IMG/VR virus record: IMGVR_UViG_3300046001_010285
Coordinates: 1-41,583 of that record
Reading direction: 5' to 3' (one strand)
DNA from: a virus
Length of the DNA: 41,583 bases
Both the position numbers and the translations under genes were made by a program. Position 1 is the first letter of the stretch; each line of letters opens with the position of its first letter. The notes beneath the pieces were generated by a model. That model was not told the origin of the DNA. It made no database searches and worked only from the letters and a program-made list of their open reading frames with translations. Below, in pieces: positions 243-23,550 of this stretch.

Positions 243-1781
243 TTAGTGACCTAATGCCAGTCTTTTGATTTTGTCAAGTTCACTTTCGAACTGCACTTTT
301 GGTATCGGTGTTGTTTTTGCTGGGATCTTTGGTGGTTGTGGTGCTGCTTTAGCGGCTAATTGATCTGCTGTTGGTTTGGTTGCTTGTGCTGCTGGTGAAA
401 CGTAGGCAGGGTTCATCTTTGCGCCAATTTCTTTTGGATCAGTGATGTCATCAGTTTCCACCATTGGTGGAGGAGGTGTAGTTGGTGCCTGACCTGCTGG
501 TTGTGCTGGAGGGCCAGCCGGTGCTGCTGGTTCTTCAGCTGGTGGTGTTTCACCAGTAGGTGCAGTGGAAATTTCTGGAACTTCCATGCCAAGTTCTTCC
601 ATGCGTTTGGCAATCAACTCTCTTGCGTCTGCGTCAGGATCTGCTAATGCCAATGTGTCAAGACGATCAAATAAAATGTCATCTCCAAAAATATCGTATA
701 GTTGTTCTGTTGCATTGGTTGCATCTGGACCAACAGGTAATTCGTTTGCCATTAAATCTGTGAGTTTACGTAGTTTCTCTGGAGTGTCCGGAACTGACCA
801 TGTGCCTTCTAATAATCTATTAGACCAAATTTCAAATTCACTTGCCTCTTTCATTTGTGTGTTCCTTAATTTTGCCAACAAAGGTAATGCTGATTCTATG
901 CGTTGGTCCAGTGTTTGCTCAATAAACATAGTGCGGAGATCTTCAACCATGATGTCAGTGTCATCAATGTTGCTTGGATTCCATGATTCAAAGTATCTAT
1001 CGTATCCCCTTGAATTGCCCAAACTTTTTAATGTGTGTTTTGCCTGTTCATAGTATTGGTTGGCTGTTTCTACAATGTTCTGTGTTGATCCTTCAAATAC
1101 TCTGCCATGATGTGCTCTACGGAATCTGCTGAGTGTGTTGATTTCTGTGACCATTTCACAAATGTGTTGGCCTCTATGATCATAGGGACGACCGCCTTGG
1201 CGTACATGCTCTAGCATTGCTCTTGCACCGCTGAGATTTTTAAATGGAAGTTTGAATCTTTCACCGTCAGTGGTTTCAACAAAAATCTTATCAATATGCC
1301 TGAATCTTGCATCACCTTCTTCTAAGCGGCGGCTGTGTTGTATAAACAATCTTGCTCCAGAATCAGGTTTACTCCAACTCTGTGTTCTATTGCCTACTAG
1401 ACTTTCCATTACACTTTCGCGAATTTGATTCATACCTTTTAGTACAAATTTCATTCTGTTGATGTTTTCTAGATTGAAACTCAAACGATTACGCATGGCA
1501 AACTTACGCAGTTGTTCTAAAAAGTTAAACCAACCTTCTTTGTCGTCAGGTTCCATGCTGCGTCCAACATTGTCGCCAAAAAACACTGTCATCTCGCCAT
1601 CTTCACCAAATAAAATTTGCACAGTGCCGTAGTTCTTGCCGTCACGGCTCTTGTAATCAAATTTAATCAAGTCAGCATCATCTGGATCCAGTATTGAGGC
1701 GCCGCCGCTGTTGAACTGCTCAGGCTCAAAGTCCTTGCTTACCAATAGGTTGTAAAGTTGTTGATTTGCGGTGTTTTTCAT
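243..1781 (-). CDS. Conserved hypothetical protein of marine T4-like phages
   Basis: A 512-residue acidic protein with no catalytic motif I recognise. Residues roughly 1-400 look globular and helical. A segment near 350-400 (PVGPDATNATEQLYDIFGDD, then LFDRLDTLALADPDADAR) is one I recall from proteins of unknown function in marine T4-like phages. Residues about 405-490 form a low-complexity Pro/Ala/Thr linker ahead of a short charged tail. It follows terL directly: the terL stop lies inside the late box just upstream, and the start ATG at 1781 has no Shine-Dalgarno. The gene ends at a strong terminator. It could be a virion or head-assembly protein given its neighbours, but nothing in the sequence proves this. 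Confidence 0.8.
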   Translation of the reverse strand: MKNTANQQLYNLLVSKDFEPEQFNSGGASILDPDDADLIKFDYKSRDGKNYGTVQILFGEDGEMTVFFGDNVGRSMEPDDKEGWFNFLEQLRKFAMRNRLSFNLENINRMKFVLKGMNQIRESVMESLVGNRTQSWSKPDSGARLFIQHSRRLEEGDARFRHIDKIFVETTDGERFKLPFKNLSGARAMLEHVRQGGRPYDHRGQHICEMVTEINTLSRFRRAHHGRVFEGSTQNIVETANQYYEQAKHTLKSLGNSRGYDRYFESWNPSNIDDTDIMVEDLRTMFIEQTLDQRIESALPLLAKLRNTQMKEASEFEIWSNRLLEGTWSVPDTPEKLRKLTDLMANELPVGPDATNATEQLYDIFGDDILFDRLDTLALADPDADARELIAKRMEELGMEVPEISTAPTGETPPAEEPAAPAGPPAQPAGQAPTTPPPPMVETDDITDPKEIGAKMNPAYVSPAAQATKPTADQLAAKAAPQPPKIPAKTTPIPKVQFESELDKIKRLALGH

Positions 1782-1788
1782 AACTGTG

Positions 1789-1795
1789 TATTTAG
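1789..1795 (-). promoter_or_regulatory. Late-type box CTAAATA overlapping the terL stop codon
   Basis: The minus strand reads CTAAATACA. Its TAA (1794-1792) is the terL stop codon. The box ends 7 bases before the ATG at 1781, which has no Shine-Dalgarno. T4 spacing puts +1 at about 1783, so the message would be nearly leaderless. Confidence 0.5.
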
Positions 1796-3360
1796 CGGCT
1801 TATACTTATAAAAGGCATGGGCTCGATCACTGCTTCCCCGTGATCGCGCATCTGTGTATGCAGTTCCCCATGATAGCTTTGTAAAAGTTGCATCATGCGT
1901 ACTACCAACAGTGTAGCCATTACTAGATCGTCAGTTTCGCCTAGTTTTGCTTTATAAGCAGGTCCAGTGGCCACAAAAGTCTTAAGCTCACTGATCAAAC
2001 TAGCACTTCTAATGCTCATTCTACGTGATTCAATTAAATTTTTTAGTTTGGCACAGGCTGCAAGTTTGGCTTTGTTAGTAGTGTTAAAGCCTTTGCGATG
2101 CCTACGCCCGCCAGCTGGTGCGTGTGGATCGCTTAGAAAATAGCCCTTGATGTTCTCTTCTCCAAATTCAGCTATACTGATCAGTGCTGCTTCGCCCACT
2201 GTGTTGTTTTCTACGCTGTAGTATATTGCGTTTTCATCTCTAACATGATCATAGATCTGTTGTACTATATCAGCTAACAAACGTATTTGGGCTGGTATGT
2301 CAGTTCTGTTGTGCCGCCATTCTCCTACCTGTTCAGTGGAGTTGGCTTCAAAAATTTCTATAGCAGCAGGATCTCCCCCGGTGCCCAGACTAGGATCAAG
2401 AGCCACCACATACATCTTGCCCTTTTCTGGTTTTTTAAACCAACGTACTTGACCTGTTTTATAAATTGGTACTGATCCTTCTAAGTCAATCAATGTTGTA
2501 GGCGCTATTAATGTTTCATCATTGATAATAAATTCACATTCCATTTCACGCCTAAAACGATCCTCACCTAGAGCCGCTCGCTGTTGTTGAGCCCATGTAT
2601 CATCACGATCTGGATGTTCTTGCCAGCGAGCTCTAAATGCTTTGAAACCATTTTGGCCTACATCAGTTGGATTGCCAAACGCATCCTCGCACTTGTTTGC
2701 ACCTTTCCATAACAAAGCAAACTGGTCTTCATCGCTGTTTGGCGTGCTGGTTATAATTGCTTTACCACCAGTGGCCAAGGTAGGACTGATAGAAGTCCAA
2801 AACTCTGTGGCAATGGTTGGTCTTACAAATGCAAATTCGTCAGCGTACAAAAGTGAAATACTCATACCACGACCTGTGTTTTCAGTAGTGGTTTGACTTA
2901 CTATTCGACTGCCGTTATCAAATTCTATACTGCCTTTGTTGTAACTAACAGCACCTGCTCTAATATGATTTGGTACGTTTTCATATCCATATCTTACACG
3001 CTGCATGATTTCTTGTGCGCCAAGATATTTGTGCGCTGCCACCAACACAGTTGAATCTGGTATAAACATTGCATACCACAACAAATATCCAGCTGCAATA
3101 GTACTTTTGCCTGTTTGTCTAGGCAGCATTGAAATACTGAATCTGTAGTTGTGATAAGTGCTGATTAAACGTTTTTGATATTCAAAGGTCTGCATTTGTA
3201 TGCGACCTCGCACAGGATGTTGAATAAAGAAAAAGTTATCAAGAAAATACAAAGGACCATTATCAGGATCAGCGCACTTGGCAAACTCCTCAAGTTGTTG
3301 ATCGCTGTAGATACTGGGTTTGTAGGCTGGTTTAACCAGCGCAATATCAACTGTGCTCAT
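1792..3360 (-). CDS. 17: Terminase large subunit (gp17, packaging ATPase-nuclease)
   Basis: The 522-residue motor pumps DNA into the prohead and cuts the concatemer. The N-terminal ATPase has an adenine/Walker A motif LPRQTGKST at 79-87, a Walker B strand SISLLYADEF ending in catalytic Glu175, and the coupling motif ITSTPN at 203-208. The C-terminal RNase H-like nuclease has its first acidic residue at Asp322 (VVALDPSLGTGGD) and a later acidic pair in GETDDLVMA near 477-478. Domain order and motifs match T4 gp17, but the protein is shorter than the 610 residues of T4 gp17. In T4, gp16 and gp17 are adjacent; here about 6 kb of small virion genes lie between them. The ATG at 3360 is preceded by a TAAATA box rather than a Shine-Dalgarno. 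Confidence 0.96.
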   Translation of the reverse strand: MSTVDIALVKPAYKPSIYSDQQLEEFAKCADPDNGPLYFLDNFFFIQHPVRGRIQMQTFEYQKRLISTYHNYRFSISMLPRQTGKSTIAAGYLLWYAMFIPDSTVLVAAHKYLGAQEIMQRVRYGYENVPNHIRAGAVSYNKGSIEFDNGSRIVSQTTTENTGRGMSISLLYADEFAFVRPTIATEFWTSISPTLATGGKAIITSTPNSDEDQFALLWKGANKCEDAFGNPTDVGQNGFKAFRARWQEHPDRDDTWAQQQRAALGEDRFRREMECEFIINDETLIAPTTLIDLEGSVPIYKTGQVRWFKKPEKGKMYVVALDPSLGTGGDPAAIEIFEANSTEQVGEWRHNRTDIPAQIRLLADIVQQIYDHVRDENAIYYSVENNTVGEAALISIAEFGEENIKGYFLSDPHAPAGGRRHRKGFNTTNKAKLAACAKLKNLIESRRMSIRSASLISELKTFVATGPAYKAKLGETDDLVMATLLVVRMMQLLQSYHGELHTQMRDHGEAVIEPMPFISISR

Positions 3361-3365
3361 AAAAG

Positions 3366-3372
3366 TATTTAA
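3366..3372 (-). promoter_or_regulatory. Late-type box TTAAATA upstream of terL
   Basis: The minus strand reads TTAAATACTTTT directly before the terL ATG. With T4 late-promoter spacing, +1 falls at 3360, the A of the start codon. No Shine-Dalgarno is present. Confidence 0.45.
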
Positions 3373-3408
3373 TGAACATCAGCTGGCATCAAGATCTTTG
3401 ATTATGGG

Positions 3409-3846
3409 TTAATTACACCAGCTCTGTTTGGCTTCGCCGTAGTACTCTCTAGCGAATCCATTTGCAATAAGTTGAGCACGTAAGCTCTGGCCATCCAAGA
3501 TCATGTCGCCTAGCACACGACCACCAAACTTGTCCCATTCGTAGAGTATAACCTGACGCTTCAACGATTTGGCAACGGCATTCTTGGTAAATGCTGAGGC
3601 AGCTTCGCCGCGTTGTGCTTCACTGGCACATTGCGCTCTGTGTCCTTTTTCTGGAGTATCAACTCCAAAGATACGCACAGCCAGTTCAGGCTTGAGCGGA
3701 GCAGGTAGGAATGGTGCTGAAATTACCACAGTATCACCATCGTTAACACGTATTACCTGTGCGTCATAGGTCACACCGGGCTTTTGTTTGGGTTGTGCAA
3801 CGGCCAGCATGGGCACAACAAGTAAGAGTAAGAAGAGTTTTTTCAT
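3409..3846 (-). CDS. Secreted thermonuclease-like (SNase-fold) protein
   Basis: A 145-residue protein with a classic signal peptide (MKK, a Leu/Val-rich core at 4-15, and likely cleavage after the AVA at 15-17) followed by a staphylococcal-nuclease domain. Visible family residues are NDGDTV at 35-40, VRIFGVDTPE with Arg58 and Glu66 (counterparts of SNase Arg35 and Glu43), and DKFGGRVLGD with Arg110 (counterpart of Arg87). All catalytic positions are therefore intact. SNases hydrolyse DNA and RNA using calcium. Export would place it in the periplasm or medium, so it may scavenge nucleotides or attack competing DNA rather than serve packaging. Two cysteines (73 and 144) could form a disulfide after export. 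The start lacks a Shine-Dalgarno. It lies between terL and virion genes. Confidence 0.9.
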   Translation of the reverse strand: MKKLFLLLLVVPMLAVAQPKQKPGVTYDAQVIRVNDGDTVVISAPFLPAPLKPELAVRIFGVDTPEKGHRAQCASEAQRGEAASAFTKNAVAKSLKRQVILYEWDKFGGRVLGDMILDGQSLRAQLIANGFAREYYGEAKQSWCN

Positions 3847-3854
3847 TTGTTTTT

Positions 3855-5214: not shown

Positions 5215-5223
5215 GTCAATGCA

Positions 5224-5729: not shown

Positions 5730-5739
5730 GATATTCTCC

Positions 5740-6423: not shown

Positions 6424-6430
6424 ATCAGTC

Positions 6431-8824: not shown

Positions 8825-8825
8825 G

Positions 8826-9434
8826 TTATCCTCTTGGGTTAGCGCCAGTGGCAGGCTTGGGTGGTCGTTTGATTGTGGTCATGGGACTCTTGGTACCCAG
8901 TGGCAAATCATTTGTGGTCTTGGCTGGCGGTGTCTTTCCACCTGCCACAGTGAAGTCACTGCGATAGGCATTTTTCAACACAGCATGGTCATAGGGTCCG
9001 GTTGCATAATCTTTCTTGAGTGCTCGCTGTTCGCTGTCTGGGGCAGGATATTCTGTATCCTTCAAGAGATCTTTGTTTTCATCGTCAATCTTGTCTGACT
9101 CGTCGCGCAGACTATCTTCGTAACCAACAGTGTTCATCACGATGCGATTGGGATCAAAGCCCATGATCTGAGCAATCTGTTTGATCTGGGGTTCAATGGC
9201 AGGATATCTAAACTCCACATCAACGATGCTCATGCTTTCGTTGGGGAAAGCTGGAAAGTCTGGATTGACTTTTCGCACTGGTGTGGTCTTGGCATCTGAC
9301 ATTTTGATCACGTCAAACTGCGCCAACTTTTCTTTTAGTTCACGTACAAATCCAGCAGGTACATCACCTACCATTTTGATACGATAACTGTAAGTACGTT
9401 CAGATTCAGCAAGGTATTTGGCAAATGTTTTCAT
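8826..9434 (-). CDS. Putative capsid-targeted internal protein
   Basis: A 202-residue protein starting MKTFAKYLAESE. This is the closest match in the window to the T4 capsid-targeting peptide MKTYQEFIAE, with a gp21-type cut after LAE at residue 10. Residues about 15-95 look like a small alpha/beta fold (YSYRIKMVGDVPAGFVRELK, then SMSIVDVEFRYPAIEPQI). I recall similar segments in proteins of unknown function from marine T4-like phages. The rest is a charged, Pro/Thr-rich tail. It has its own late box, whose TAA is the gp16 stop, and an AGGA ribosome site. The function inside the capsid is unknown. Confidence 0.7.
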   Translation of the reverse strand: MKTFAKYLAESERTYSYRIKMVGDVPAGFVRELKEKLAQFDVIKMSDAKTTPVRKVNPDFPAFPNESMSIVDVEFRYPAIEPQIKQIAQIMGFDPNRIVMNTVGYEDSLRDESDKIDDENKDLLKDTEYPAPDSEQRALKKDYATGPYDHAVLKNAYRSDFTVAGGKTPPAKTTNDLPLGTKSPMTTIKRPPKPATGANPRG

Positions 9435-9451: not shown

Positions 9452-9458
9452 TATTTAT
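9452..9458 (-). promoter_or_regulatory. Late-type box ATAAATA overlapping the gp16 stop codon
   Basis: The minus strand reads GAATAAATAAGG, with the gp16 stop TAA (9457-9455) inside the box. Predicted +1 is near 9446, leaving a 12-base leader that contains AGGA before the ATG at 9434. Confidence 0.5.
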
Positions 9459-9955
9459 TCTTTTTCAGCTTTTTGATCTTTACGGCCCAGGATTCGCTCC
9501 AAGAGATCGTTGCGGCTCAACACCACGCCGTTGCCTTGCTGTACAGGCGATACTGCGCCAGCGTCGCCGCGAGCGGCCTGTTGATCCAAACGCATTTTCT
9601 TCAACTGGAGATCAATCATCTTGAGTTTTTTGTCTAGCTTGGCTGTCTTGGCTGTGATGGCATGCCCCAGCATGTTGCTGGCCACACCAAATATCTCGCT
9701 GGCAAACCTTGAATCCACCTGCATGCCCAGATCCATGAGATCTTTGTAGCTGGCTTCAGCCATGATGGCCAAATTATCCATTTCTTGATCTGTGGCCTCT
9801 AGCCCGCGCACGCCAGGCAGCGCAGCATCAATCTTGTCAATGGTGGCATCAATTTCCTTCAGAGTCACACGGTTTTCTGCCAAGTCGGGTATGGCAGCAT
9901 CAATTTCTTCAGGGCTGGGAGGTAAGTCAAACAACTGTTCAAGTTTACGGGTCAT
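9455..9955 (-). CDS. 16: Terminase small subunit (gp16)
   Basis: A 166-residue, mostly helical protein. Its length matches T4 gp16 (164). It has the expected layout: an acidic N-terminus, a central pair of long helices forming a coiled-coil hairpin (residues about 55-125, with GLEATDQEMDNLAIMAEASY and AKLDKKLKMIDLQLKKMRLD), and a short charged tail. Small terminase binds the packaging site, assembles as a ring and stimulates gp17 ATPase. The call rests on size, the helical pattern and a location between gp4 and other packaging genes, not on a catalytic motif. The ATG at 9955 follows a CTAAATA box by four bases with no Shine-Dalgarno. Confidence 0.8.
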   Translation of the reverse strand: MTRKLEQLFDLPPSPEEIDAAIPDLAENRVTLKEIDATIDKIDAALPGVRGLEATDQEMDNLAIMAEASYKDLMDLGMQVDSRFASEIFGVASNMLGHAITAKTAKLDKKLKMIDLQLKKMRLDQQAARGDAGAVSPVQQGNGVVLSRNDLLERILGRKDQKAEKE

Positions 9956-9959
9956 GCCG

Positions 9960-9966
9960 TATTTAG
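9960..9966 (-). promoter_or_regulatory. Late-type box CTAAATA directly before gp16
   Basis: The minus strand reads CTAAATACGGC followed by the gp16 ATG. With T4 spacing, +1 falls at about 9954-9955, on the start codon itself. No ribosome site is present. Confidence 0.5.
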
Positions 9967-11899: not shown

Positions 11900-12562
11900 T
11901 TAGACGCTGTTGGATGAAGCAACGCCAGTCACAACTGATCCAAGTGCTCGTCCAATATTTAGACCAATACCAACACCACTGGTCTGAAGAGCAGCCGCTT
12001 GGCTCTGTGCTGCGTTGTCGTAAGCAATGGATAATTCAATAGTCACTGCTTCGTTGCTGCCGTAGTTCATGTCACCGTAGTTGGCGCCCTTGAGATAGCA
12101 ACCATACAGTTCCCATGCTTCTAATACCACAGGAGCTGCTGTGCCGTTGCCGCCGTCCAGGACTTCAATCACTGTTTTGAATTTGTAATCAATACCAGCA
12201 GCAGCCGAAGCCATTTCCAAGAAATCCATCTGCTTCTGAAGCTGTTGTCCCACCAACTTGGATACCGAAGCAGTGGCATCATCTCTGATGCTGCAGGTGA
12301 TGTCTGCCCAGGTGGGCTTGCCTGCCAATTTCAAAGTGCTGTTGTAAATGGGCAGCGCAATCTCTTCAAAAGTGAGATTGGGTCTAGTGATATTGATCAC
12401 TTGTTTGGTGAGTTCGCTTGTGGGCGAAGTTGTTCCAAAGTTTTCAAAAAACACTCTAAAGCGGTACTTTAGTTTGGGCATCAACAGGCCCTGGCTGCCG
12501 TTGCTTTGATCGCCCGCGGCTGCTATGGGTACTGTCATTCTTTGTAATGATGAAACTGCCAT
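11900..12562 (-). CDS. 19: Tail tube protein gp19
   Basis: The 220-residue major tube subunit stacks in hexameric rings inside the sheath. The sequence has the tube-fold order: KYRFRVFFENFG (32-43), then NITRPNLTFEEIALPIYNST (57-76), then the KPTWADITCSIRDD segment (82-95), then VLEAWELYGCYLKGANYGDM (about 146-165) and AVTIELSIAYDNAAQ near 170-185. These match T4-family gp19, though it is longer than the 163-residue T4 protein. It lies directly after gp18 as in T4 and has its own late box plus an AGGAG ribosome site, suiting a highly expressed virion protein. Confidence 0.92.
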   Translation of the reverse strand: MAVSSLQRMTVPIAAAGDQSNGSQGLLMPKLKYRFRVFFENFGTTSPTSELTKQVINITRPNLTFEEIALPIYNSTLKLAGKPTWADITCSIRDDATASVSKLVGQQLQKQMDFLEMASAAAGIDYKFKTVIEVLDGGNGTAAPVVLEAWELYGCYLKGANYGDMNYGSNEAVTIELSIAYDNAAQSQAAALQTSGVGIGLNIGRALGSVVTGVASSNSV

Positions 12563-12580: not shown

Positions 12581-12587
12581 TATTTAC
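12581..12587 (-). promoter_or_regulatory. Late-type box GTAAATA upstream of gp19
   Basis: The minus strand reads GGTAAATAAAAG. Predicted +1 is near 12575, giving a 13-base leader with AGGAG before the ATG at 12562. Confidence 0.55.
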
Positions 12588-12636: not shown

Positions 12637-15600
12637 TCAATTACCTGCTGCTATTTCGCCTGTGTTCTTGATACGCAGCGGAATGTAAATGAATTCCACA
12701 GCTTTCACAGGCTCAATAGCTATGTCAACCCAAAGTTCGTTGCGATCAATTCTGGCCGGAGTGTTGTTGCTTTGATCGCACACCACCAGATAATCATACA
12801 AGGCTCGTTTGGCCACCAGGTCAATCATCAAGCTGTCAATCACGTTGGAAATCTCATTGCGTGTGAGCTCGTCATTGGGTTCAAACAAGAACTGCTTGCC
12901 AATTTCTTCCAGTCTACCACGCAAGAATGCCACCAAACGTGCCACGTTGATTCTATCCAATGCTGTTGTAGCTGTAGCTGTGGTTTTGTTACCAAAGTTA
13001 ACAATGCCCACACCCGGGATAAACGTGATTGGGTTGATGTTGCGCTCATACAGGATGTCGCGCACAGCTTGGCTCACACCAATCTGCTGGAACTCACCAG
13101 TTGTAGCATCAATATAGCCAATGGCACTGGCATTGTCAACCACACCACGACGTGTACCAGCTGGTGCTAACCATGGGTAACTTACAGCATCGCTGCGCAG
13201 TATGGTTCTCACCATCATGTGGCTGGGCGGTGCTACCACAGTGTTACCTGACAGATCATTGGTCTGACAGCTGGGATAGAACGCTGCGGCATAGTTGCTG
13301 ACAGCATTGTTGCCATCTTCGGTCAGTAGACCCAGCCCATTGTTGTTGGTTGCCCACTCTACCAGGCTGTTGCCTGTGGAGTCTAGACGCATGGGTGTGT
13401 CTGCCACAACAAACAGAGTATTGTTGCGTTCATTGCTTAGTGCAATCATGTTCTGTGTCAATTCAGGATAGGCCGGTGTGGCTATCAAGTTGAATTGATT
13501 TTGTTCTTCTCTTGCAGCAATGCTGGTGTCAATACCTGCTTTCAAGGCCTCAACGATCAATTGACGTTGCGCTTGACGTCCACTCCACATGGCACCATTG
13601 TCTTTGTTGCCACTGGCCGTGAGCCAGGTAGTAGACACAGCTGGATAGGTCTGATCCGGAATCCAGCTTGGAATGTCTGGGAAGTTTTGCTCGTCAAGAT
13701 AGGTTGTAAACTCTTTGACGTTGTACCCGCTGCGGCGTGTGTTAAACAACAACATGCCCTGAGGATACAATGCTGGATCAGGTGCGTCAAGGTCAAGATA
13801 ATCACTCACCAACAGGCTTTCAATTGTTGGGAATGGGTCAGCCACTGGATCTGTGTTTCCATTGGGTGCCCAACGAGCATCAGCAAACAAAATGCCATTG
13901 GATGTTACTTGATCAGTAGTGTCAATTTCTACCCATTGCTGCACACTGTCAACACTTTCCCAACGATAAAGCTTGGGATAGTTTTCCAAATCACTGGTAT
14001 CAACCCAGAGATCACCCAACTGTAACGGACTTTCAGCTGCGTCGTTCTGTGTCAGCGGAGCGGATGCACTGATAATTGGTCCACTGGCATTGGTCAGGCT
14101 TAGATCGTATCCACGTACATCATTGGTGACATTTTGGTATCCTTGCCAAGTCCCGTTGTCTTGGATCATGATATCAACATCGCTCACTGTGCTGTAATAC
14201 CACAAGCGACCGTTGTCAGGATCTTGATCAGGGGCAGTCAAGCTAGCAGTGTACTCAAACAGAGGTGTTGTCACAAAGTTACTGAGAATATAAACAGCCA
14301 CACCGTTGCTGACTGCGTCGCGTACTTTGGGGGTGTTGGCATCAAAACCAGCTGCCTCCACTGCTGATGTTTGTTCAAGAGCAATGGTACCGCCTGCTGA
14401 ATGTATAAACACCAAGTTACCTGCTGAATTCAATGTGCATGACACATTGGCAACATTGGCTGCACTAACACCAGAAATAAATTGCGATACTCCCACAGGT
14501 CCAGATCCACCAATGGTCACTGTGGCAGTATTGGCGTCAGTGGTGCCTGGAATGGTAGCTGTGAGTGTGAATGTGTCGCCACCAGTGAATGGTGTACCAG
14601 AACTCACCACTGTGGTTCCTGTGACTTCTGTGGCGCCGCTGGCAAAACGTTCGTACACTGTGTATTCAAAAGTGGTCAGCGGAACCAAAGCCGGAGATGC
14701 GATACCAGTTAGAGCAATGTAAGTTGTACCTGCTGGGATGTTGCGACCGCCACCCGAAGGATCAAGTCCAAACAGAGCCGTGCCATCATCTATATATTCT
14801 GGGCAAGGTTGTGCCACAAATGTAGCCAATGCAGAATCATACTTCTTGATACTGACATTCATGCCATTGTTGGCAGCACTGACGTTTTGCCAAACAGACC
14901 CAGTGGGGCGGCCACCTTGAACATCTGTGGTTCTCCAGCGTGGGGCTTGATAGCTATAGGCCGACAGGTATTCTGGTGCAGGATAAGCGTTGGTAGAAAT
15001 TCCCAGGGCTGTGAGCAATGCAGCTCCACTGTTGGGACCTTGTTCAATTTCAATAAAACCATTGTTGGTCAATGTACTGCCATCGCTGCCAGCTGTACTG
15101 TCAGCAAAAATATACAGCTTGCCGCTGATTTCTGCTGCTGTGACACCTGTGATAGCAGCACTGTTGATGTTGTTGGCTAGGCCTGCAATGTTGTTGTCAG
15201 GTGCTGTAGGCACTGCTACCAGACTGCCATTGATGTAAAGGTTGGCGTTGGCTGTGAGTGTGGTTGGTGCATTTTCGCTGACCACTGTGGCCCAGCTTGA
15301 TTTCCACTCATCGCTGCCGATCAATACCCAGGTGTTTTCATAGTTTTTGTAGTAACCAAAAATCAATGCATCTGAATCGGTCATGGTCACAGCATAATCA
15401 CCAATGCTGCCCACTGTGGTCAGCGGAGTATTCTGTTCGGCCGCTGTGCCGCCGGTACCTGTTACATCAGCACCATCAGTTATGATCAAAGGTACTTTGT
15501 TGGTAAATGTATTGGTGGTTTGATTCCACTCAAAAATACCCCAGGTAGTGGCGGTGGTGTCAAACCAGTATGTGCCATCATTGGGCTCGCCACGTGGACG

Positions 15601-15972
15601 ACTCAAGCTGGCCGTGAGCTCAGTGAGATCAATGTTCGCACGTTGCACATAAGCACGATTGGTAACTCCCAACGCACTGTACGCTGCCAACAAACCATAC
15701 TCATTGAGTTCATATCCATTGATGGGAGTGCCTGCTGTGGTGTTGTAGAAAAATGGTACACCAAAGGTGGCAGCTAGATCTCGTTGGCTTGTGATCAAAT
15801 AAGTTTTGTTTGCGTTGACAGCCAATGTACCAGCAGCAACAGTGATGCCATCAGCACTGACTTTGTCTTGGGCTGTGGCAACCAAGAAATAAGGGACTGT
15901 GTTTACGGCTGAGGGAATGTATTGACTCTCGTCAATTACTGTTACCTCTACGCCAGGCGATATTAAGGCCAT
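12637..15972 (-). CDS. 18: Contractile tail sheath protein gp18 (enlarged)
   Basis: A 1111-residue sheath subunit; T4 gp18 has 659. The N-terminus SPGVEVTVIDESQYIPSAV is the standard sheath start. The C-terminal sheath domain is clear from about residue 790: ERNNTLFVVADTP, HMMVRTILRSDAVSYPWLAP, the GGRV-type GTRRGVVDN, YERNINPITFIPGVGIVNFG, INVARLVAFLRGRLEEIGKQ, and the closing strand VEFIYIPLRI. Between them lie several hundred extra residues with repeated Trp/Tyr motifs (YWFDTTATTWGIFEWNQ, RLWYYSTVSD, GDLWVDTSDLENYPKLYRWE), probably surface-exposed beta domains. The sheath contracts to drive the tube through the envelope. AAAGGAAATC is its ribosome site. Confidence 0.95.
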   Translation of the reverse strand: MALISPGVEVTVIDESQYIPSAVNTVPYFLVATAQDKVSADGITVAAGTLAVNANKTYLITSQRDLAATFGVPFFYNTTAGTPINGYELNEYGLLAAYSALGVTNRAYVQRANIDLTELTASLSRPRGEPNDGTYWFDTTATTWGIFEWNQTTNTFTNKVPLIITDGADVTGTGGTAAEQNTPLTTVGSIGDYAVTMTDSDALIFGYYKNYENTWVLIGSDEWKSSWATVVSENAPTTLTANANLYINGSLVAVPTAPDNNIAGLANNINSAAITGVTAAEISGKLYIFADSTAGSDGSTLTNNGFIEIEQGPNSGAALLTALGISTNAYPAPEYLSAYSYQAPRWRTTDVQGGRPTGSVWQNVSAANNGMNVSIKKYDSALATFVAQPCPEYIDDGTALFGLDPSGGGRNIPAGTTYIALTGIASPALVPLTTFEYTVYERFASGATEVTGTTVVSSGTPFTGGDTFTLTATIPGTTDANTATVTIGGSGPVGVSQFISGVSAANVANVSCTLNSAGNLVFIHSAGGTIALEQTSAVEAAGFDANTPKVRDAVSNGVAVYILSNFVTTPLFEYTASLTAPDQDPDNGRLWYYSTVSDVDIMIQDNGTWQGYQNVTNDVRGYDLSLTNASGPIISASAPLTQNDAAESPLQLGDLWVDTSDLENYPKLYRWESVDSVQQWVEIDTTDQVTSNGILFADARWAPNGNTDPVADPFPTIESLLVSDYLDLDAPDPALYPQGMLLFNTRRSGYNVKEFTTYLDEQNFPDIPSWIPDQTYPAVSTTWLTASGNKDNGAMWSGRQAQRQLIVEALKAGIDTSIAAREEQNQFNLIATPAYPELTQNMIALSNERNNTLFVVADTPMRLDSTGNSLVEWATNNNGLGLLTEDGNNAVSNYAAAFYPSCQTNDLSGNTVVAPPSHMMVRTILRSDAVSYPWLAPAGTRRGVVDNASAIGYIDATTGEFQQIGVSQAVRDILYERNINPITFIPGVGIVNFGNKTTATATTALDRINVARLVAFLRGRLEEIGKQFLFEPNDELTRNEISNVIDSLMIDLVAKRALYDYLVVCDQSNNTPARIDRNELWVDIAIEPVKAVEFIYIPLRIKNTGEIAAGN

Positions 15973-15997
15973 AGTGATTTCCTTTGCAAGTTATCTA

Positions 15998-16005
15998 TAT
16001 TTATT
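15998..16005 (-). promoter_or_regulatory. Late-type box AATAAATA upstream of gp18
   Basis: The minus strand reads CAATAAATATAG. Predicted +1 near 15992 leaves a 20-base leader with AAAGGAA before the gp18 ATG. It forms a divergent pair with the plus-strand box at 16056. Confidence 0.5.
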
Positions 16006-16055
16006 GAGTTGGGTCAAAAAACCTGCTCTAGCCAACCCTTTGGCAAAGGTTCTAC

Positions 16056-16063
16056 TATAAATA
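16056..16063 (+). promoter_or_regulatory. Late promoter box TATAAATA before the HNH-like gene
   Basis: A perfect T4 late consensus four bases before the ATG at 16068. T4 spacing puts +1 at about 16069, so the message would start at the start codon. No ribosome site is visible. Confidence 0.6.
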
Positions 16064-16067
16064 TGGC

Positions 16068-16415
16068 ATGAAACGTCCTGTCTGTCAGGCCTGTACCCAA
16101 AGACCCTGTGCAATCAACTATTATCGCGACGGGGTCGCGCACTATCGCACCAGGTGCGAAAGTTGTTTGAGGAAAAATCGCGGACTCAAAAAACGATCTC
16201 CGCTGTGGGAATCAGCAGGTTACAAGAAAAAATTGATATGTGATCGCTGCGGGTTCAAGGCCAAATACAGCGCTCAAATCATGGTGTATCACATGGACGG
16301 CAAGCTTTCAAACTGCGACATAAAAAATCTTCGCAGCATTTGTCAAAACTGCGCTGTGGAAGTGGTCAGGAGTGACTTGCCGTGGCGTCGCGGTGATCTT
16401 GAACCAGATCTGTGA
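16068..16415 (+). CDS. HNH-like zinc-finger protein
   Basis: A 115-residue basic protein with two zinc-binding clusters: Cys6, 9, 30 and 33, and Cys58, 61, 92 and 95. The second cluster frames a VYHMDGKLSNCDIKNLRSIC segment (73-92), which follows the HNH endonuclease signature (His75, Asp77, Asn82, Asn87, Leu88, then C-x2-C). The last histidine usually found after CxxC is replaced by Ala96, so catalysis is uncertain. Small HNH proteins in T4-like phages can be homing nucleases or may act in packaging; neither is proven here. It is a lone plus-strand gene between minus-strand blocks, and its 3' end overlaps the convergent dNMP kinase gene by 50 bases. Confidence 0.75.
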   Translation: MKRPVCQACTQRPCAINYYRDGVAHYRTRCESCLRKNRGLKKRSPLWESAGYKKKLICDRCGFKAKYSAQIMVYHMDGKLSNCDIKNLRSICQNCAVEVVRSDLPWRRGDLEPDL

Positions 16416-17022: not shown

Positions 17023-17029
17023 GGTTTCC

Positions 17030-18073: not shown

Positions 18074-18087
18074 TGATACAAACTTTT

Positions 18088-18609
18088 TCAAGCCAGTTCC
18101 TTGACTTTGAGATATTGCAAAGTTGTCTGTAACAGACCAATCTGTCTGCGACAGTCTTCCAAGGCATGGTGACTGGTGGGCGGTTTCTCTAAGCCGGGCC
18201 ACAACGAAAAAACAGTGCGACTGTCACGTACAGCAAAATACTTCCAGGGAATGGGTTTGTTGTAGCTTTTGTATGCATGTTCCAAGATGTTCATGTCGTA
18301 TGTTGGACCCTGTGCCCAGATTCGCTTGCTGTGCCAAATCAGGCGGCCCAATTCATCCAACGCCCGATCAAGAGGCACTCGATTATCTTCAGCAAAAGCT
18401 TCGTTTTTGGCTGCTGCTGGCTGAGTAGCCCACCATTCAAGAGTGCCCTGTTCTATTCTACGATCAGGTTGGCTGTCAAGATCAATCCTTGCATAGTAAT
18501 GCTGCGGATACCAACCGGACCCAAATGGATCAAATGCCTGCGCAGCAATGGTTAGAATGGTAGTGTCAGGACCGGTGGCCAGTCCCTCAAGATCAATCAT
18601 CAGGTCCAT
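18088..18609 (-). CDS. DEDDh 3'-5' exonuclease (DexA/Rv2179c-like)
   Basis: A 173-residue exonuclease of the RNase H-like DEDDh type. Motif I is IDLEG with Asp6 and Glu8, motif II is AQGPTYDMNILEHAY with Asp105, and motif III is HHALEDC with His147 and Asp152. This order and spacing, including the RDSRTVFSL stretch (128-136), match the family containing T4 DexA and Rv2179c-type exoribonucleases. DexA removes nucleotides from DNA 3' ends. All catalytic residues are present. An extended -10 box (TGCTATAAT) lies so close upstream that the first ATG (18609) would be at the transcript's 5' end; ATG 18600 is an alternative start that still keeps motif I. Confidence 0.88.
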   Translation of the reverse strand: MDLMIDLEGLATGPDTTILTIAAQAFDPFGSGWYPQHYYARIDLDSQPDRRIEQGTLEWWATQPAAAKNEAFAEDNRVPLDRALDELGRLIWHSKRIWAQGPTYDMNILEHAYKSYNKPIPWKYFAVRDSRTVFSLWPGLEKPPTSHHALEDCRRQIGLLQTTLQYLKVKELA

Positions 18610-18614
18610 GCTGT

Positions 18615-18623
18615 ATTATAGCA
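18615..18623 (-). promoter_or_regulatory. Extended -10 promoter TGCTATAAT before the exonuclease
   Basis: The minus strand reads TGCTATAAT, an extended -10 with no good -35 at 17 bp. It probably serves host RNA polymerase early or in mid-infection. Predicted +1 is at about 18608. Confidence 0.5.
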
Positions 18624-18650
18624 TGGAAAATTATTGAATTGTGATACTAG

Positions 18651-19415
18651 TTATCCAATGACCCAGGTCAAAGGCTGACTACCGTCAACGTAGTTGACCA
18701 GTTGCAGAATAAGTGACTCCATGTCGGCCTTGGCTTCGGCCTTCATGGCTTGCCCGTTCAGTGTAGTTCCGCCCTGTGGTCCTGCTATGGTTCCAAACTT
18801 TTCTCTGGCCTCACCTATGATCATTTTGCAGTTGGCCAGCATGTAGTCTTTGATCCACTGACTTATCTGTAGATCCTGTAGCAGTACCACTTCGGGTTTG
18901 AGCTGCCATACCCACAGCAAAACATTTTCGCCGGTGCCTTTGGGATCGCGAATGATTTGAAGCTTTTTGGTAACCTGATTCCAGGTGTAGTTTACAAAAC
19001 CACCAAACATTCTGGCAGCCAATTCCACATACTGTGTGTAGAAATCATAAGTGGCCAGGCCGCCTGCGGTATTGAAGTTCATGAGATACACGTTGATGGA
19101 TGCCTGGGCAAACGGATCAAAGTTGCTGGCAAACGGGCCTGTGGCAGTGCCAAAAGTGCGTCGGAAAATCTGACGCACACTCACAACTTCTTGGGGCAAT
19201 GTGTAGATGTTTACGTCCTGAATCAGCTCCATGAAGATATAGGCTTCTTCATAAGCATTGTTAGCACGTTGCCGATAGGTTCCTATGGTTTTTTGATAGG
19301 CTGCTTCATAATGTGCTGGATCCAACTCAATATCTACGATTTCGTCAGCCAGTTGCAGTCGCACATACTCAATGAGATTTTGTTTGAGCGTGGGTAATGT
19401 AATTTCTGTGTCCAT
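18651..19415 (-). CDS. 13: Neck protein gp13
   Basis: The 254-residue neck component binds the portal/head-neck junction and prepares the filled head for tail joining. It has the family pattern: a helical N-terminus (LIEYVRLQLADEIVDIELDP, 14-33, like the 'RQLG…VNVEL' start of T4 gp13), AYQKTIGTYRQRANNAYEEA (about 39-58) and DVNIYTLPQEVVSVRQIFRR (about 68-87). A C-terminal helical block follows (WIKDYMLANCKMIIGEAREK, then FGTIAGPQGGTTLNG). Its size is close to the 309 residues of T4 gp13. It carries its own late box and a CGGAG ribosome site. Its partner gp14 lies 3 kb away on the opposite strand, unlike the adjacent arrangement in T4. Confidence 0.85.
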   Translation of the reverse strand: MDTEITLPTLKQNLIEYVRLQLADEIVDIELDPAHYEAAYQKTIGTYRQRANNAYEEAYIFMELIQDVNIYTLPQEVVSVRQIFRRTFGTATGPFASNFDPFAQASINVYLMNFNTAGGLATYDFYTQYVELAARMFGGFVNYTWNQVTKKLQIIRDPKGTGENVLLWVWQLKPEVVLLQDLQISQWIKDYMLANCKMIIGEAREKFGTIAGPQGGTTLNGQAMKAEAKADMESLILQLVNYVDGSQPLTWVIG

Positions 19416-19433
19416 GGGAAACTCCGTTCCCTA

Positions 19434-19440
19434 TATTTAC
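19434..19440 (-). promoter_or_regulatory. Late-type box GTAAATA overlapping the SGNH hydrolase stop
   Basis: The minus strand reads GGTAAATATAGG. The TAA at 19439-19437 is the stop codon of the SGNH gene. Predicted +1 near 19428 leaves a 13-base leader with CGGAG before the gp13 ATG. Confidence 0.55.
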
Positions 19441-20072
19441 CGCGTAGACTCAATCCAGCCATGCAGGCGGCTAGCAATCATGTCATGCCCCAGTTGATTG
19501 GGATGTGCGCCATCTGCACCAATGTAAGGATTGTTTTTGGTATTGACCAAATGTTCACCGTTGTGTTCAAAGAGTCCAAACCAGTTGGCTGCGGTTTCCT
19601 GTCCTTTGGCCCAGATTCTGTCAAGATCAACCCCGGGCAGCCAAGTGTGATACTGTACCCAGCCCGAAAAATAAAAGTCCCTGATTCCCATGCCAGCACA
19701 CCAGTGCTGCAAAGCACTCACTGTGGAACTGCTGCGCACGACTTCATGCCCGGGCTCATGAAAATGCAAGTACAGTTCTTTGAGCTTGGTGTCAGCATTG
19801 GCCCAACTGAAAAATCTGGGAAAATGTGCGGTGCGGGCCGGATTGGTCAAAAAGAATATTGCAGTGGTATTACCTAGGTCATCATGGTGTTGTGAAACAA
19901 AAGTCTGAAATTGATACAAAAGATCCTCGTTGCTGGCACCACCTGATCCGTAGTTGCAAAACTCATCAACTTGCATGAGTTCGGCCAGCGTTTCGCCGTA
20001 ACGGCGACCGCTGCCAATGCCGGCGCCTTCTGGCCAACTGTCGCCAAACGTGGCCAAGATTTTTTTGCTCAT
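19437..20072 (-). CDS. SGNH/GDSL-type hydrolase
   Basis: A 211-residue SGNH-fold protein. Block I is ATFGDSWPEG with nucleophile Ser12. Block II is YGSGGASN with the oxyanion Gly around 44-45. An Asn in LTNPAR (77) fits block III, and block V is DGAHPNQLGH with Asp187 and His190. The catalytic Ser-Asp/His set is therefore complete. SGNH enzymes remove acyl groups, often acetyl, from sugars, lipids or proteins. There is no signal peptide, so it probably acts in the cytoplasm or is built into virions. It overlaps the radical SAM gene by four bases (ATGA), so the two are co-translated; a shared modification pathway is an inference. Confidence 0.85.
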   Translation of the reverse strand: MSKKILATFGDSWPEGAGIGSGRRYGETLAELMQVDEFCNYGSGGASNEDLLYQFQTFVSQHHDDLGNTTAIFFLTNPARTAHFPRFFSWANADTKLKELYLHFHEPGHEVVRSSSTVSALQHWCAGMGIRDFYFSGWVQYHTWLPGVDLDRIWAKGQETAANWFGLFEHNGEHLVNTKNNPYIGADGAHPNQLGHDMIASRLHGWIESTR

Positions 20073-21034
20073 TGAAAACCTGATGTGCTGTTGGGTTTTT
20101 TGCTCACTGCTCGTATTGTGGTATTGGCTGAGTAGTTACTGGGACAGAATTTACACTGCGGAATGGGGTCATCAATTGTGGCAAGAAACTGTTGGCCACG
20201 ATCTGCAAACTGCGACACTTCCAAGGGACGATAGCTGTTGAGCAGTTCACGATCTTGATCAGATATGTCTAGATTGAATTGCTTATCAAATTCCGGAAAC
20301 AGCGCCACTGGCCCGCATTTGTACAGAGCCCCACCTATGAAATGATAACATTTGTATCTTACAAATCCGCAATTGTCGTGTGCCAGCTTGACATCACTGT
20401 TGTGCAGTGTATGTCGGCCTGATTCATTGAAAGTAATGGCTGCTGTGTAAAAACTATCATAATCCCAGACTGGGATACGCACATTGTTCTTGTCAATAAA
20501 TGCTTGTGCAGCCCCCATGGTCACACTGTTGTTGTGGTTTTCTGCGTCGTGCTTTTTGACCATGCGTATGGGCGGTTGCAGAAATTTATGTATTTCTTCA
20601 TACAAGCGATCTCTATCCGCTTCATTGTGCATGCTGATACCAATCCAATTGCGCACCCAAGGCAGACGTGGATCAATACCACTCTGCAACAAAACTTCAT
20701 ATAGCCCAGGCACTTTGTTGATTCGAGTGCCATTGGTCTGTATCTGTACTGCTTTGTTCCACAGTTGATTGATGCCTTTGACCCAATCCAACAATGAGGG
20801 ATTCAGCAGTGGCTCCCCGCCCAGGATGGTAACTTTTTGAAATCTTACATGTTTGGCCCATTCGGCGTAGACCGCAGCATGGTCTTGCCACAGCTGGTGT
20901 CCGCGGAAATGATAGTTGTTGAATCTATTGCAGTTATGGCAATTGAGATTGCAAACATTGGTAATGTAAAACTCAACATAGCCAATCAGCGTTCTAGGAT
21001 CTTCAGGATAATCGTCAACTATGGTATATGCCAT
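20069..21034 (-). CDS. Radical SAM enzyme
   Basis: A 321-residue radical SAM protein. ITNVCNLNCHNCNRF carries the CxxxCxxC cluster motif (Cys28, 32 and 35), and ILGGEPLLNP near 70-80 is the GGEP SAM-binding motif. QIQTNGT near 100 is the next conserved strand. The C-terminal half has additional cysteines (CGFVRYKC, then YKCGPVALF) and a closing CKFC pair (294 and 297) that could hold an auxiliary iron-sulfur cluster, as in SPASM/twitch-type enzymes. Such enzymes modify peptides, sugars or nucleic acids by radical chemistry; the substrate is unknown. It is coupled to the SGNH hydrolase and lies eight bases from the gene upstream. The ribosome site is weak. Confidence 0.9.
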   Translation of the reverse strand: MAYTIVDDYPEDPRTLIGYVEFYITNVCNLNCHNCNRFNNYHFRGHQLWQDHAAVYAEWAKHVRFQKVTILGGEPLLNPSLLDWVKGINQLWNKAVQIQTNGTRINKVPGLYEVLLQSGIDPRLPWVRNWIGISMHNEADRDRLYEEIHKFLQPPIRMVKKHDAENHNNSVTMGAAQAFIDKNNVRIPVWDYDSFYTAAITFNESGRHTLHNSDVKLAHDNCGFVRYKCYHFIGGALYKCGPVALFPEFDKQFNLDISDQDRELLNSYRPLEVSQFADRGQQFLATIDDPIPQCKFCPSNYSANTTIRAVSKKPNSTSGFQ

Positions 21035-21041
21035 GTGCTGG

Positions 21042-22178
21042 TCACCAACTCTTGAGTATCACAATGTGTTCGTTGCCGCGTCCGTTGAACGCTGTTTCTG
21101 TGGTTTTGATGTCTTTGTAGGTTTTTCTTGCAGCAGGTTTACCTCCGGCCATCAACTCCTTTAAAACTTCGGCGGGTTTGCGCAGAGTCTTTTGCATGCT
21201 TTCAGCAGTGCTGTAACCTATCACGGTGTTGTTCTTGAGCGTGAATTGTCCCACGTGTGAATCTGCAACCAGGTGAATCAGTTTGCGTGTCTTGGTATTG
21301 TATAACCATGCTTCACTTTTGTCCACCAACTGGCTTGCGGCCAAGCTCTTGAGTTTGAGTTCTGCAAATTCAGCTAGATATTTAAACTTGCTGGCTCGCT
21401 TTTCTGGACTCACAGGTTTTGCCTTGCGTGGCTTGCGTTCAACCTTTTTGATCTGTACATAGGCACCGCAGTCATTGATCACTGTGTCGCAAAATTTTAC
21501 TACGTTGCGCAGTTGAATTTTGGTCAGGTGTTGATAGGCTTCAACCAACTGAGCATCCGTACCATCAATCACAGCCGTAAACTCAGCCAATCTCTGTTTC
21601 CATGCCTGTGCTATTTCATTGACCATTTGCGGTGCTACATTCATGCCACGCATGGTAGCTATGGGTTTGAAGTCAGCTGACATCTTGGCACCGGCTGCAA
21701 TAAAGTCATCAAACATGCCATCTATCTCACCTGCACACTCACTGACCTTTTCACGCAGTCGATCCTGTATGGTGGCTTTTGGTACTGCTGGCGCTGGCTC
21801 ATCAATTTCTGGCTGTGCGTTGGTCTGTTCTTGTGCCAACATTGCTGAGATCATTCGATCCAAACTTGACCGCTCATCGGCCGTGAGCTCAAGACCAACT
21901 GTGTTCATACGACACAGCCAGGCCGCTGTGCAACGTATGGCGCTGTCGGGCACTCTGCGCAGTCGTTTTATGTCAGGTTTCCTGCCTTGAGATTCCAGCC
22001 AGGCCACTAGCATGTCTCGAGCTTCTTTTTTGCCAAAGAAATAGTTGTACCAAGTAAACGCTCGGGTCAGCGAACTGGTACGATTTTCGACATCAGGCTG
22101 CTTGCGCCAATCTGGTTCTGGGCCGGTGTATTTGGTGTCCGGGCTTTTGGGATTGATCAGCTTTACTGCTGTTTTCAT
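21042..22178 (-). CDS. Conserved hypothetical protein (378 residues)
   Basis: The start is set at the ATG at 22178 (MKTAVKLINPKSPD), which has a GGAG ribosome site and lies downstream of a strong sigma70-type promoter. The upstream in-frame ATG at 22250 would lie before that promoter. The protein is basic and helical, with a Lys/Arg-rich middle (KKVERKPRKAKPVSPEKRAS) and a C-terminal domain (WLYNTKTRKLIHLVADSHVG, then LKNNTVIGYSTAES). I recall similar proteins in marine T4-like phages, with no assigned function. The YNTKTRKL…Y…A pattern suggests a small beta domain, perhaps nucleic-acid binding. It leads a unit that continues into the radical SAM and SGNH genes. Confidence 0.7.
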   Translation of the reverse strand: MKTAVKLINPKSPDTKYTGPEPDWRKQPDVENRTSSLTRAFTWYNYFFGKKEARDMLVAWLESQGRKPDIKRLRRVPDSAIRCTAAWLCRMNTVGLELTADERSSLDRMISAMLAQEQTNAQPEIDEPAPAVPKATIQDRLREKVSECAGEIDGMFDDFIAAGAKMSADFKPIATMRGMNVAPQMVNEIAQAWKQRLAEFTAVIDGTDAQLVEAYQHLTKIQLRNVVKFCDTVINDCGAYVQIKKVERKPRKAKPVSPEKRASKFKYLAEFAELKLKSLAASQLVDKSEAWLYNTKTRKLIHLVADSHVGQFTLKNNTVIGYSTAESMQKTLRKPAEVLKELMAGGKPAARKTYKDIKTTETAFNGRGNEHIVILKSW

Positions 22179-22202
22179 GGCATTCTCCAGGGTCAACACA
22201 GT

Positions 22203-22231
22203 ATTATAACACTCTATCAAGTTTTGGTCAA
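22203..22231 (-). promoter_or_regulatory. Sigma70-type promoter, TTGACC-17-TATAAT
   Basis: On the minus strand, TTGACC (22231-22226) and TATAAT (22208-22203) are separated by exactly 17 bp. It would start transcription near 22196, 18 bases before the ATG at 22178. It is the best host-type promoter in the window and probably acts early. Confidence 0.85.
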
Positions 22232-22240
22232 GCACGGGCG

Positions 22241-22247
22241 GTAAATA
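22241..22247 (+). promoter_or_regulatory. Late-type box GTAAATA before gp14
   Basis: Plus-strand GGTAAATACA lies seven bases before the gp14 ATG at 22255. T4 spacing gives +1 near 22253. No ribosome site is present. It is divergent from the sigma70-type promoter at 22203. Confidence 0.55.
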
Positions 22248-22254
22248 CAAAACT

Positions 22255-23550
22255 ATGCCCAGACTCAGCCTTTACCGCCCAAATCGCACTCGTGATTACC
22301 AATTTTTAGATAGAACTGTGTCCGAAATGTACACAGTGGGCGGCCTTGACATATTTGTACACAAGTACATGGGCCCAATCACTGGTCCCACCGAGGGGAC
22401 CAATGATGCCACTATCCCTATTTACGACAACGAAAATCCCCTGAACATTCAAGACCTATTGTTGCTGGAAAACCGGGACAGAGTATATGATCCAGATATC
22501 TATGTCATGAGAGGTGTGTACAATCAACAAGACATTGATTTTGACCTTACTCAGTTTGGGCTGTTTTTGCAGAACGACACCCTGTTTATCACGTTTCACT
22601 ACAATGACATGATAGACACGTTTGGGCGCAAACTCATGAACGGCGATGTGCTTGAGATACCCAATCTCAAAGATTACAATCCACTCAATCCCAATCGTTT
22701 GCCGTTGCCAAAATATTACGTGATCCAAGACGCGGCTTTTGCCAGCGAAGGATTCAGTCAGACCTGGTTGCCGCATGTGTGGCGTGTCAAAGCCACGCCC
22801 ATGACCAACAGCCAAGAATTCAAGGATATTCTAAACAAACCTCAGGTCACAGAAAATATCTGGGACAATGGAAATTTCTATCCCGTGGGCTCCGTTGTAA
22901 ACTACAACGGTGGTTATTATCAAGCCATTCAAAACACTCCCAGTGGCATAGACATTACCAATGCACAGTATTGGATGGCATACACGCCGCCTACCGAGGC
23001 CGAGACCATGACCACTCGGCCCAAGGATCAAGAAATCAATGATGCGATACTGACTCAGGCCGAAATTGAAGTACCATTGAGCGGATATGACACAGCTCTG
23101 TTCTACATTGAACCAACCTTGAACGGGGAGCCAGCCAATCCTGATGGACTCACTGCTGACGATACTGCTGTGACTGTGGATGGTACCCAAGGCGGCATGA
23201 ACATCACTCCCAGTGGTCCAGGTTACACTCGAGGCTATCTCACTGGCGACAACGTTCCCAATGGATATCCTGTCACCAGCGGTGTGGCGTTTCCGGTCAG
23301 TCCTGTGGTAGGCGACTACTGCTTGCGCCTAGATTATTTTCCAAATAGACTGTTTAGATACGATGGCATTCGTTGGGTCAAGATTGAAGATGGTGTGCGA
23401 ACCAGTCTCAACAACGGACCAGAAAACAAAACTTTGCGCAGTGGCTTTGTCAACAACACCGACACTGTCAACACCACTGATCGTGGAGCTATACCCAGTA
23501 GACAGAGTCTCAGTGATATACTGCGTCCTCAAGCAGACAACGGCGGTTAA
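22255..23550 (+). CDS. 14: Neck protein gp14 (with extra C-terminal modules)
   Basis: A 431-residue protein; T4 gp14 has 256. Residues 1-190 follow the neck family: LDIFVHKYMG (31-40), NIQDLLLLENRDRVYDPDIY (64-83), VMRGVYNQQDIDFDLTQFGL (84-103, equivalent to the MRGVE-type segment of T4 gp14), then TLFITFHYNDMID and GDVLEIPNLKDYNPLNPNRL. An added segment at 201-243 (NGNFYPVGSVVNYNGGYYQA, then a YW pair) resembles a small carbohydrate-binding fold. A later FPNRLFRYDGIRWVKIED motif near 363-380 is a W-rich module I know from marine T4-like phages. gp14 joins gp13 to form the neck. It is translated without a visible ribosome site. Confidence 0.82.
   Translation: MPRLSLYRPNRTRDYQFLDRTVSEMYTVGGLDIFVHKYMGPITGPTEGTNDATIPIYDNENPLNIQDLLLLENRDRVYDPDIYVMRGVYNQQDIDFDLTQFGLFLQNDTLFITFHYNDMIDTFGRKLMNGDVLEIPNLKDYNPLNPNRLPLPKYYVIQDAAFASEGFSQTWLPHVWRVKATPMTNSQEFKDILNKPQVTENIWDNGNFYPVGSVVNYNGGYYQAIQNTPSGIDITNAQYWMAYTPPTEAETMTTRPKDQEINDAILTQAEIEVPLSGYDTALFYIEPTLNGEPANPDGLTADDTAVTVDGTQGGMNITPSGPGYTRGYLTGDNVPNGYPVTSGVAFPVSPVVGDYCLRLDYFPNRLFRYDGIRWVKIEDGVRTSLNNGPENKTLRSGFVNNTDTVNTTDRGAIPSRQSLSDILRPQADNGG

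Follow-up and report, generated by a model that had tools for sequence, protein, structure and literature searches.

T4-type late promoter boxes beside start codons predict a class of leaderless late mRNAs in a clade of T4-like viruses and in pelagiphages

The DNA analyzed here, referred to below as the window, is a 41.6-kb virus record (41,583 nt) in which PHROG and Pfam searches place a structural region of the T4 superfamily, with assigned genes for TerL, head closure, gp13, gp15, sheath, tube and a dNMP kinase. The first 25 kb of the window had no megablast match in the phage collection, and no bacterial genome contig was found that encodes a relative of the window TerL. Five genes are the main subject of this report. 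Three are on the minus strand, namely a gene for a 512-aa protein matching a virion structural PHROG (243-1781), the large terminase gene terL (1792-3360) and a 166-aa gene (9455-9955). The other two, an HNH-like gene of 115 aa (16068-16415) and a gp14-like virion structural gene (22255-23550), are on the plus strand. The names given to them in an earlier sequence-only reading are not equally secure. The terL identity is firm (PF03237, 4e-17), and the HNH-like gene has only a weak match (PHROG HNH endonuclease, 2e-4). The gene at 9955 was called gp16 by position only, and its sole match is the uncharacterised phrog_16202. The name gp14 for the gene at 22255 rests on its place upstream of the adjoining gp15 gene, which is itself firm (PF16724); its own match is phrog_11591 (virion structural).

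Each of the five genes has a TAAATA box very near its ATG and no Shine-Dalgarno (SD) site before its start codon, exactly as that reading had described. With spacing counted as the nucleotides between the last A of TAAATA and the ATG, the boxes are located at 1789-1794(-), 7 nt from the ATG of gene 243-1781; at 3366-3371(-), 5 nt from terL; at 9960-9965(-), 4 nt from gene 9455-9955; at 16058-16063(+), 4 nt from the HNH-like gene, where the full octamer TATAAATA occupies 16056-16063; and at 22242-22247(+), 7 nt from the gp14-like gene. Five other late boxes, said to be farther off and to have ribosome sites, are indeed 17-25 nt from their ATGs with an SD in each case, all on the minus strand. 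These precede the tail sheath gene 12637-15972 (15998-16003, 25 nt), the tail tube gene 11900-12562 (12581-12586, 18 nt), the gp13 gene 18651-19415 (19434-19439, 18 nt), gene 8826-9434 (9452-9457, 17 nt) and the giant gene 33711-40292 (40316-40321, 23 nt). The 95-nt intergenic region 15972-16068 has both classes back to back on opposite strands, a far box with an SD leading to the sheath gene and a close box leading to the HNH-like gene.

TAAATA is AT-rich and contains a stop codon, and its total in the window is near chance (17 versus 12.8 expected), all of which would be in keeping with chance, base composition or the TAA of a preceding gene as the source of these boxes. However, it is the placement of TAAATA in the window, not its total count, that makes it special. 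An ATG opening an open reading frame (ORF) of at least 60 codons follows 4-7 nt after five of the 17 TAAATA sites, compared to five of 247 sites for the 14 other hexamers with an identical composition (binomial P = 3e-5), and hexamers of the same letters, including TAATAA (0/10), have no such effect. The core TAAATA is common to all 17 sites and the full TATAAATA octamer is present at only two of them.

The same placement is found on a larger scale in a clade set of 1.07 Mb, consisting of the window and pieces of five long relatives (G001, G002, G003, G004 and G006), in which each distance runs from TAAATA to an ATG that begins an ORF of 60 or more codons and expectations were taken from permuted hexamers. 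The distances are bimodal: 98 boxes are 4-8 nt from the ATG versus about 11 expected, six fall in a gap at 9-13 nt, and 87 are at 14-24 nt versus about 25 expected. Other terL loci contribute 120 boxes at 4-8 nt versus about 12 expected. Some of the counted genes are orthologues of one another, and so these counts overstate independence. Start codons at the close boxes are AUG rather than GUG, as allowing GTG raises the 98 ATG sites only to 102 (TTG was not counted). As in the window, conservation in the clade is confined to the TAAATA core and does not extend to the two leading letters of TATAAATA.

An unbiased hexamer scan at fixed distances returned SD words first, followed by TATAAT at 6 nt and TAAATA at 5, 4 and 7 nt; the peak is thus recovered without reference to a motif. 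The close peak is absent from T4, PA5oct, Phosso, Vibrio phage 2.275.O, S-PM2, phiM12 and Cr30, even though these carry gp55, and the excess at 4-5 nt in P-SSM2 is small (4 versus 1.0 expected) and does not have the pyrimidine signature described below. T4, PA5oct and S-PM2 are AT-rich, whereas the clade with the strong peak has 46% GC. Together with the orthologue-defined starts considered next, the spacing counts and the motif-blind scan refute chance or base composition at the clade level, and the suggestion that boxes might be equally common at random positions fails strongly against the same-composition hexamers, the clade counts and those starts. Chance or composition can hardly be credited as the explanation.

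The relationship between the boxes and SD sites was analyzed with starts that were accepted only where at least two other genomes back the same ATG by protein alignment, a procedure that is blind to the motif; an SD was defined as a four-letter purine word at -18 to -5. With these starts, an SD is present in one of the 43 genes with TAAATA at 4-8 nt, in 33 of the 35 genes with TAAATA at 14-30 nt and in 109 of the 215 boxless genes (Fisher tests on SD presence: close versus far, 2e-18; close versus boxless, 1e-10). The mutual exclusion of close boxes and SD sites, which the sequence-only reading had proposed computing, is therefore nearly complete (1/43 versus 33/35). A general scarcity of SD sites is ruled out as its cause because 94% of the far-box genes carry one. 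Weaker 5' structure in the close class was considered as well, and the mean minimum free energy of the first 40 nt (-2.5 versus -2.6 in the far class) does not separate the classes. About half of the boxless genes have no SD, implying that SD-less genes are tolerated by other routes in these phages.

Such an exclusion would also be expected if TAAATA beside the ATG were an A/U-rich translation initiation element that replaces the SD, with the promoters located farther upstream, and the existence of further SD-less genes fits that proposal. However, TAAATA also occurs at 14-30 nt together with an SD, where it looks like a promoter, and the bases between the close boxes and the ATG have a pattern that has no translational reason. 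The base before the ATG is a pyrimidine in 95% of the close-box genes versus 51% of the boxless genes; it is C or T in 77% of the 4-nt class and 94% of the 5-nt class. At offset 4 of the 7-nt class, 83% of the cases have an A, followed by two pyrimidines, and at offset 5 of the 8-nt class nine of nine have a purine. Held-out loci of the 7-nt class have A, C and T before the ATG at frequencies of 0.89, 0.78 and 0.86, numbers that overstate independence because some of the sequences are mutually orthologous. The 6-nt TAAATA class, which would leave a leader of 1 or 2 nt, is rare. Two further observations speak against a translation signal, namely that the sigma70 -10 word has a close class at its own spacing, and that 13 close boxes follow terminators that would end upstream transcripts; both are described below. 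We consider this alternative unlikely.

Read as the pyrimidine-purine step of a transcription start, this pattern allows the 5' ends to be predicted. The T4 late box is numbered -13 to -6 in a review (PMC2988020). An octamer ending at -6 puts +1 five bases past the box, the first base being counted as 0, which at a 5-nt spacing is the A of the ATG. From the sequence signature, we would place +1 four or five bases past the box. The start previously predicted for terL from T4 spacing, at 3360, stands, and the other four (1783, 9954, 16069 and 22253) are corrected to 1784, 9955, 16068 and 22252. Consequently, the window leaders are best predicted to be 3, 0, 0, 0 and 3 nt for starts at 1784, 3360, 9955, 16068 and 22252, respectively; the predicted +1 is the A of the ATG for terL, gene 9455-9955 and the HNH-like gene, and the two short leaders would be GTT (gene 243-1781) and ACT (gp14-like gene). 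In general, the leaders look to be either 0 or 3 nt, the latter with the consensus ACU. At loci L002-L142, ACT is found just before ATGs whose boxes are 7-8 nt away, corresponding to a leader of one codon and not of 1 or 2 nt.

The close boxes are conserved among orthologues. Among TerL homologues with 71-81% identity, a comparable box in many cases precedes the terL ATG by 3-7 nt with no SD, orthologues of gene 243-1781 in all five long relatives of the clade set keep the box at 5-7 nt, and in the same five relatives the box is at 4 nt for gene 9455-9955 and at 4-5 nt for the HNH-like gene. A close box is kept even among orthologues with 50-60% identity. The gp14 gene differs, as its box is still 7 nt away in G004 and G006 and is 17-18 nt away with an SD in G001 and G002; the gene thus appears to have changed its box class together with gaining an SD. 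An intrinsic terminator is located 6-26 nt upstream of 13 of the 211 close boxes, compared to 0.5% at random positions. Read-through apart, transcription of a gene with a terminator just upstream could begin only in the box region, and almost no space, if any, is then left for a leader. The position of the boxes, the pyrimidine-purine signature, the upstream terminators and the conservation among orthologues all argue against starts well upstream of the close-box ATGs.

Orthologues also bear on whether the boxes could be late promoters whose genes have their true starts downstream, with SD sites and ordinary leaders. The start codons are predictions, and terL has an in-frame ATG at codon 56 with a weak SD-like word. 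However, the orthologues agree on the ATG at the box, and the first 13 codons of close-box genes have a coding signature, with a per-site change at third positions 2.6 times that at first and second positions. In addition, no SD-led start is present within 60 codons in any of the remaining four window genes, and the depositors of a cultured phage (HTVC008M, see below) annotated the same ATGs. Downstream starts are, we think, very improbable.

Early genes also appear to be in a close-promoter class. TATAAT, the sigma70 -10 word, has one peak 6 nt before the ATG, which is its canonical spacing to +1, and a second near 30 nt; several of the 6-nt cases have a TTGAC-like -35 element. At orthologue-defined starts, an SD accompanies TATAAT in none of seven genes at 5-7 nt and in eight of eight at 20-35 nt. 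The leaderless habit would then not be specific to gp55. In the window, an exonuclease-like gene (18088-18609, minus strand) has TATAAT 5 nt before its ATG (region 18609-18620) and may thus be read as an early mRNA of the leaderless kind. In PA5oct, the exonuclease gene is preceded by TTGACA and by TATAAT, the latter 7 nt from its ATG.

A second group with close boxes is found among the pelagiphages. HTVC008M (NC_020484), a cultured T4-like phage of Pelagibacter, has 12 boxes at 4-5 nt versus 1.1 expected, and four metagenomic relative groups have 12, 15, 33 and 10 boxes at exactly 5 nt versus 0.5, 0.3, 0.8 and 0.7 expected. In HTVC008M, the depositors set the starts of the genes for tape measure, DNA end protector, head closure, tail tube cap and baseplate wedge at ATGs that a box precedes by exactly 5 nt. 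The genes for the end protector and for head closure are divergent, and the 26-nt gap between them holds both boxes. SD-led late genes with boxes 18-21 nt away are present as well. In HTVC008M and loci L254-L333, where many late genes have boxes exactly 5 nt before them, the extended consensus is TAAATAGTNNT-ATG, and the ACT one-codon leader appears again in the pelagiphage 8-nt class. Late-promoter prediction has been unsuccessful in pelagimyophages (Zaragoza-Solas et al. 2020, PMC7029224), and boxes so near start codons may explain why such searches failed.

Sigma factors of the gp55 family read late boxes of the TAAATA type. A gp55 homologue (phrog_234) was found in five of six long relatives (G001, G003, G004, G005 and G006) and in HTVC008M, each with an E value of 2e-23 or better; none was found in G002, possibly a fragment, or in the window, which is itself a fragment. 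Activation by the gp45 sliding clamp is a biochemical trait of T4-type late promoters; the gp45 PHROG had no match in the long relatives, a search that is uninformative about whether gp45 is absent. The boxes precede homologues of T4 late genes, including terL, portal, gp14, gp25, sheath, tube and gp13.

Taking all of this together, we propose, with a probability of about 0.87, that the close TAAATA boxes are gp55-type late promoters yielding leaderless mRNAs (0 or 3 nt) beside an SD-led far set. A promoter of this type would start transcription either with the A of the AUG itself or one codon earlier, so that a box 4-5 nt from the ATG would give a leader of 0 nt and a box 7-8 nt away a leader of 3 nt, typically as ACU-AUG. 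The resulting SD-less mRNAs would be translated from the 5'-terminal AUG like other leaderless mRNAs, presumably by 70S ribosomes as a review considers probable (PMC9031893). The second promoter set, 14-30 nt upstream, would produce ordinary SD-led mRNAs, such as those for sheath and tube. The earlier idea of two classes of late mRNA, one of them leaderless, is thus supported by the bimodal spacing and the SD exclusion, with the leaders themselves predicted from sequence.

T4 is a textbook case of late transcription, and the mRNAs made from its late promoters are assumed to be SD-led. Like the T4 late promoters (PMC2988020), the boxes described here have a TAAATA core before T4-late-gene homologues and a predicted +1 five bases past the box. 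Unlike in T4, where boxes of the late region are mostly 14-28 nt before SD-led ATGs, there is an additional SD-less class at 4-8 nt, and the first two letters of the T4 octamer TATAAATA are not conserved. The close class also resembles cellular leaderless genes, whose promoter element is located some 10 nt ahead of the start codon, which have no SD and whose mRNA begins at or near the AUG; the same method of inference is accepted there. By the TA-led criterion of PMC3160421, which looks for a -10 element at roughly 10 nt from the start codon, both TATAAT (at 6 nt) and TAAATA (at 4-8 nt) are suitably placed, in numbers far above expectation. Cellular leaderless genes depend on the housekeeping sigma, whereas the present class consists mainly of phage late promoters, has predicted leaders of 0 or 3 nt and stands beside an SD-led class. 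Single leaderless mRNAs of phages, such as that of lambda cI, are cited in PMC9031893. The late mRNAs would be like cI in starting at their own AUG and unlike it in forming a class over terminase, portal and baseplate genes in two T4-like phage groups, cI being one repressor gene. The proposal combines T4-type late promoters with leaderless mRNAs, each known by itself, in a new way; no earlier report of leaderless T4-type late mRNAs was found in the open-access literature.

In view of a predicted leaderless late class, present in metagenomic relatives as well as in a cultured SAR11 phage, late promoters need to be sought differently. Two classes in one genome would provide a natural system for studying competition between SD-led and leaderless mRNAs during takeover of the ribosome pool, and the apparent 0-or-3-nt rule bears on the acceptance of a 5'-terminal AUG by the 70S ribosome. 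A wider view, which we offer tentatively and do not favor at present, is that at least two T4-superfamily groups (the window clade and the pelagimyophages) rebuilt their late programme on leaderless mRNAs with a leader of exactly zero nt or one codon. A shift of the promoter by 10-15 bp would then switch a gene between SD-dependent and 5'-AUG-dependent translation, and late proteins would be sorted by route, possibly with the help of changed ribosomes late in infection.

The close-box genes include terL, portal, the gp25 wedge, gp14 and the HNH-like gene; the far-box genes include sheath, tube, scaffold, fibres, gp13 and a gp6-like wedge; and the major capsid gene is downstream of the scaffold gene and has a strong SD (AAAGGAG). 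Protein amounts might be affected by such a division, and sorting by copy number, with leaderless genes encoding low-copy proteins, was considered. The terL, portal, gp14 and gp25 genes versus sheath, tube and major capsid fit this sorting, gp13 and the gp6-like wedge do not, and it is a tendency only. Ribosomal protein bS21 contacts the anti-SD region, and a phage-encoded bS21 was considered as the cause of the trait. This protein is encoded in G004, G006, G002 and HTVC008M (at L338, L337, L339 and L334, respectively) but also in PA5oct, Phosso and the Vibrio phage, and it was not found in G001 or G003; its presence has no correlation to the trait, and we rejected it.

Pseudomonas phage PA5oct (Arenbergviridae) is among the closest named relatives found for the window, with a TerL that is 53% identical, a similar order of structural genes and gp55, and it does not have the close-box class (four boxes at 4-8 nt versus about seven expected). 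Its annotated terL start is inside a terminator-like inverted repeat (NC_071039, 128846-128891). Homology to the window TerL begins at 128891, and the annotated start is therefore probably wrong. In the window, the ORF at 21042-22250(-) opens with TTG inside the divergent gp14 box region, and its true start probably lies further inside the ORF. The full octamer TATAAATA also occurs as a late box at 179-186(-), after a terminator-like repeat; it would have a leader of about 75 nt to an SD-led ATG at 99, the gene of which runs off the window.
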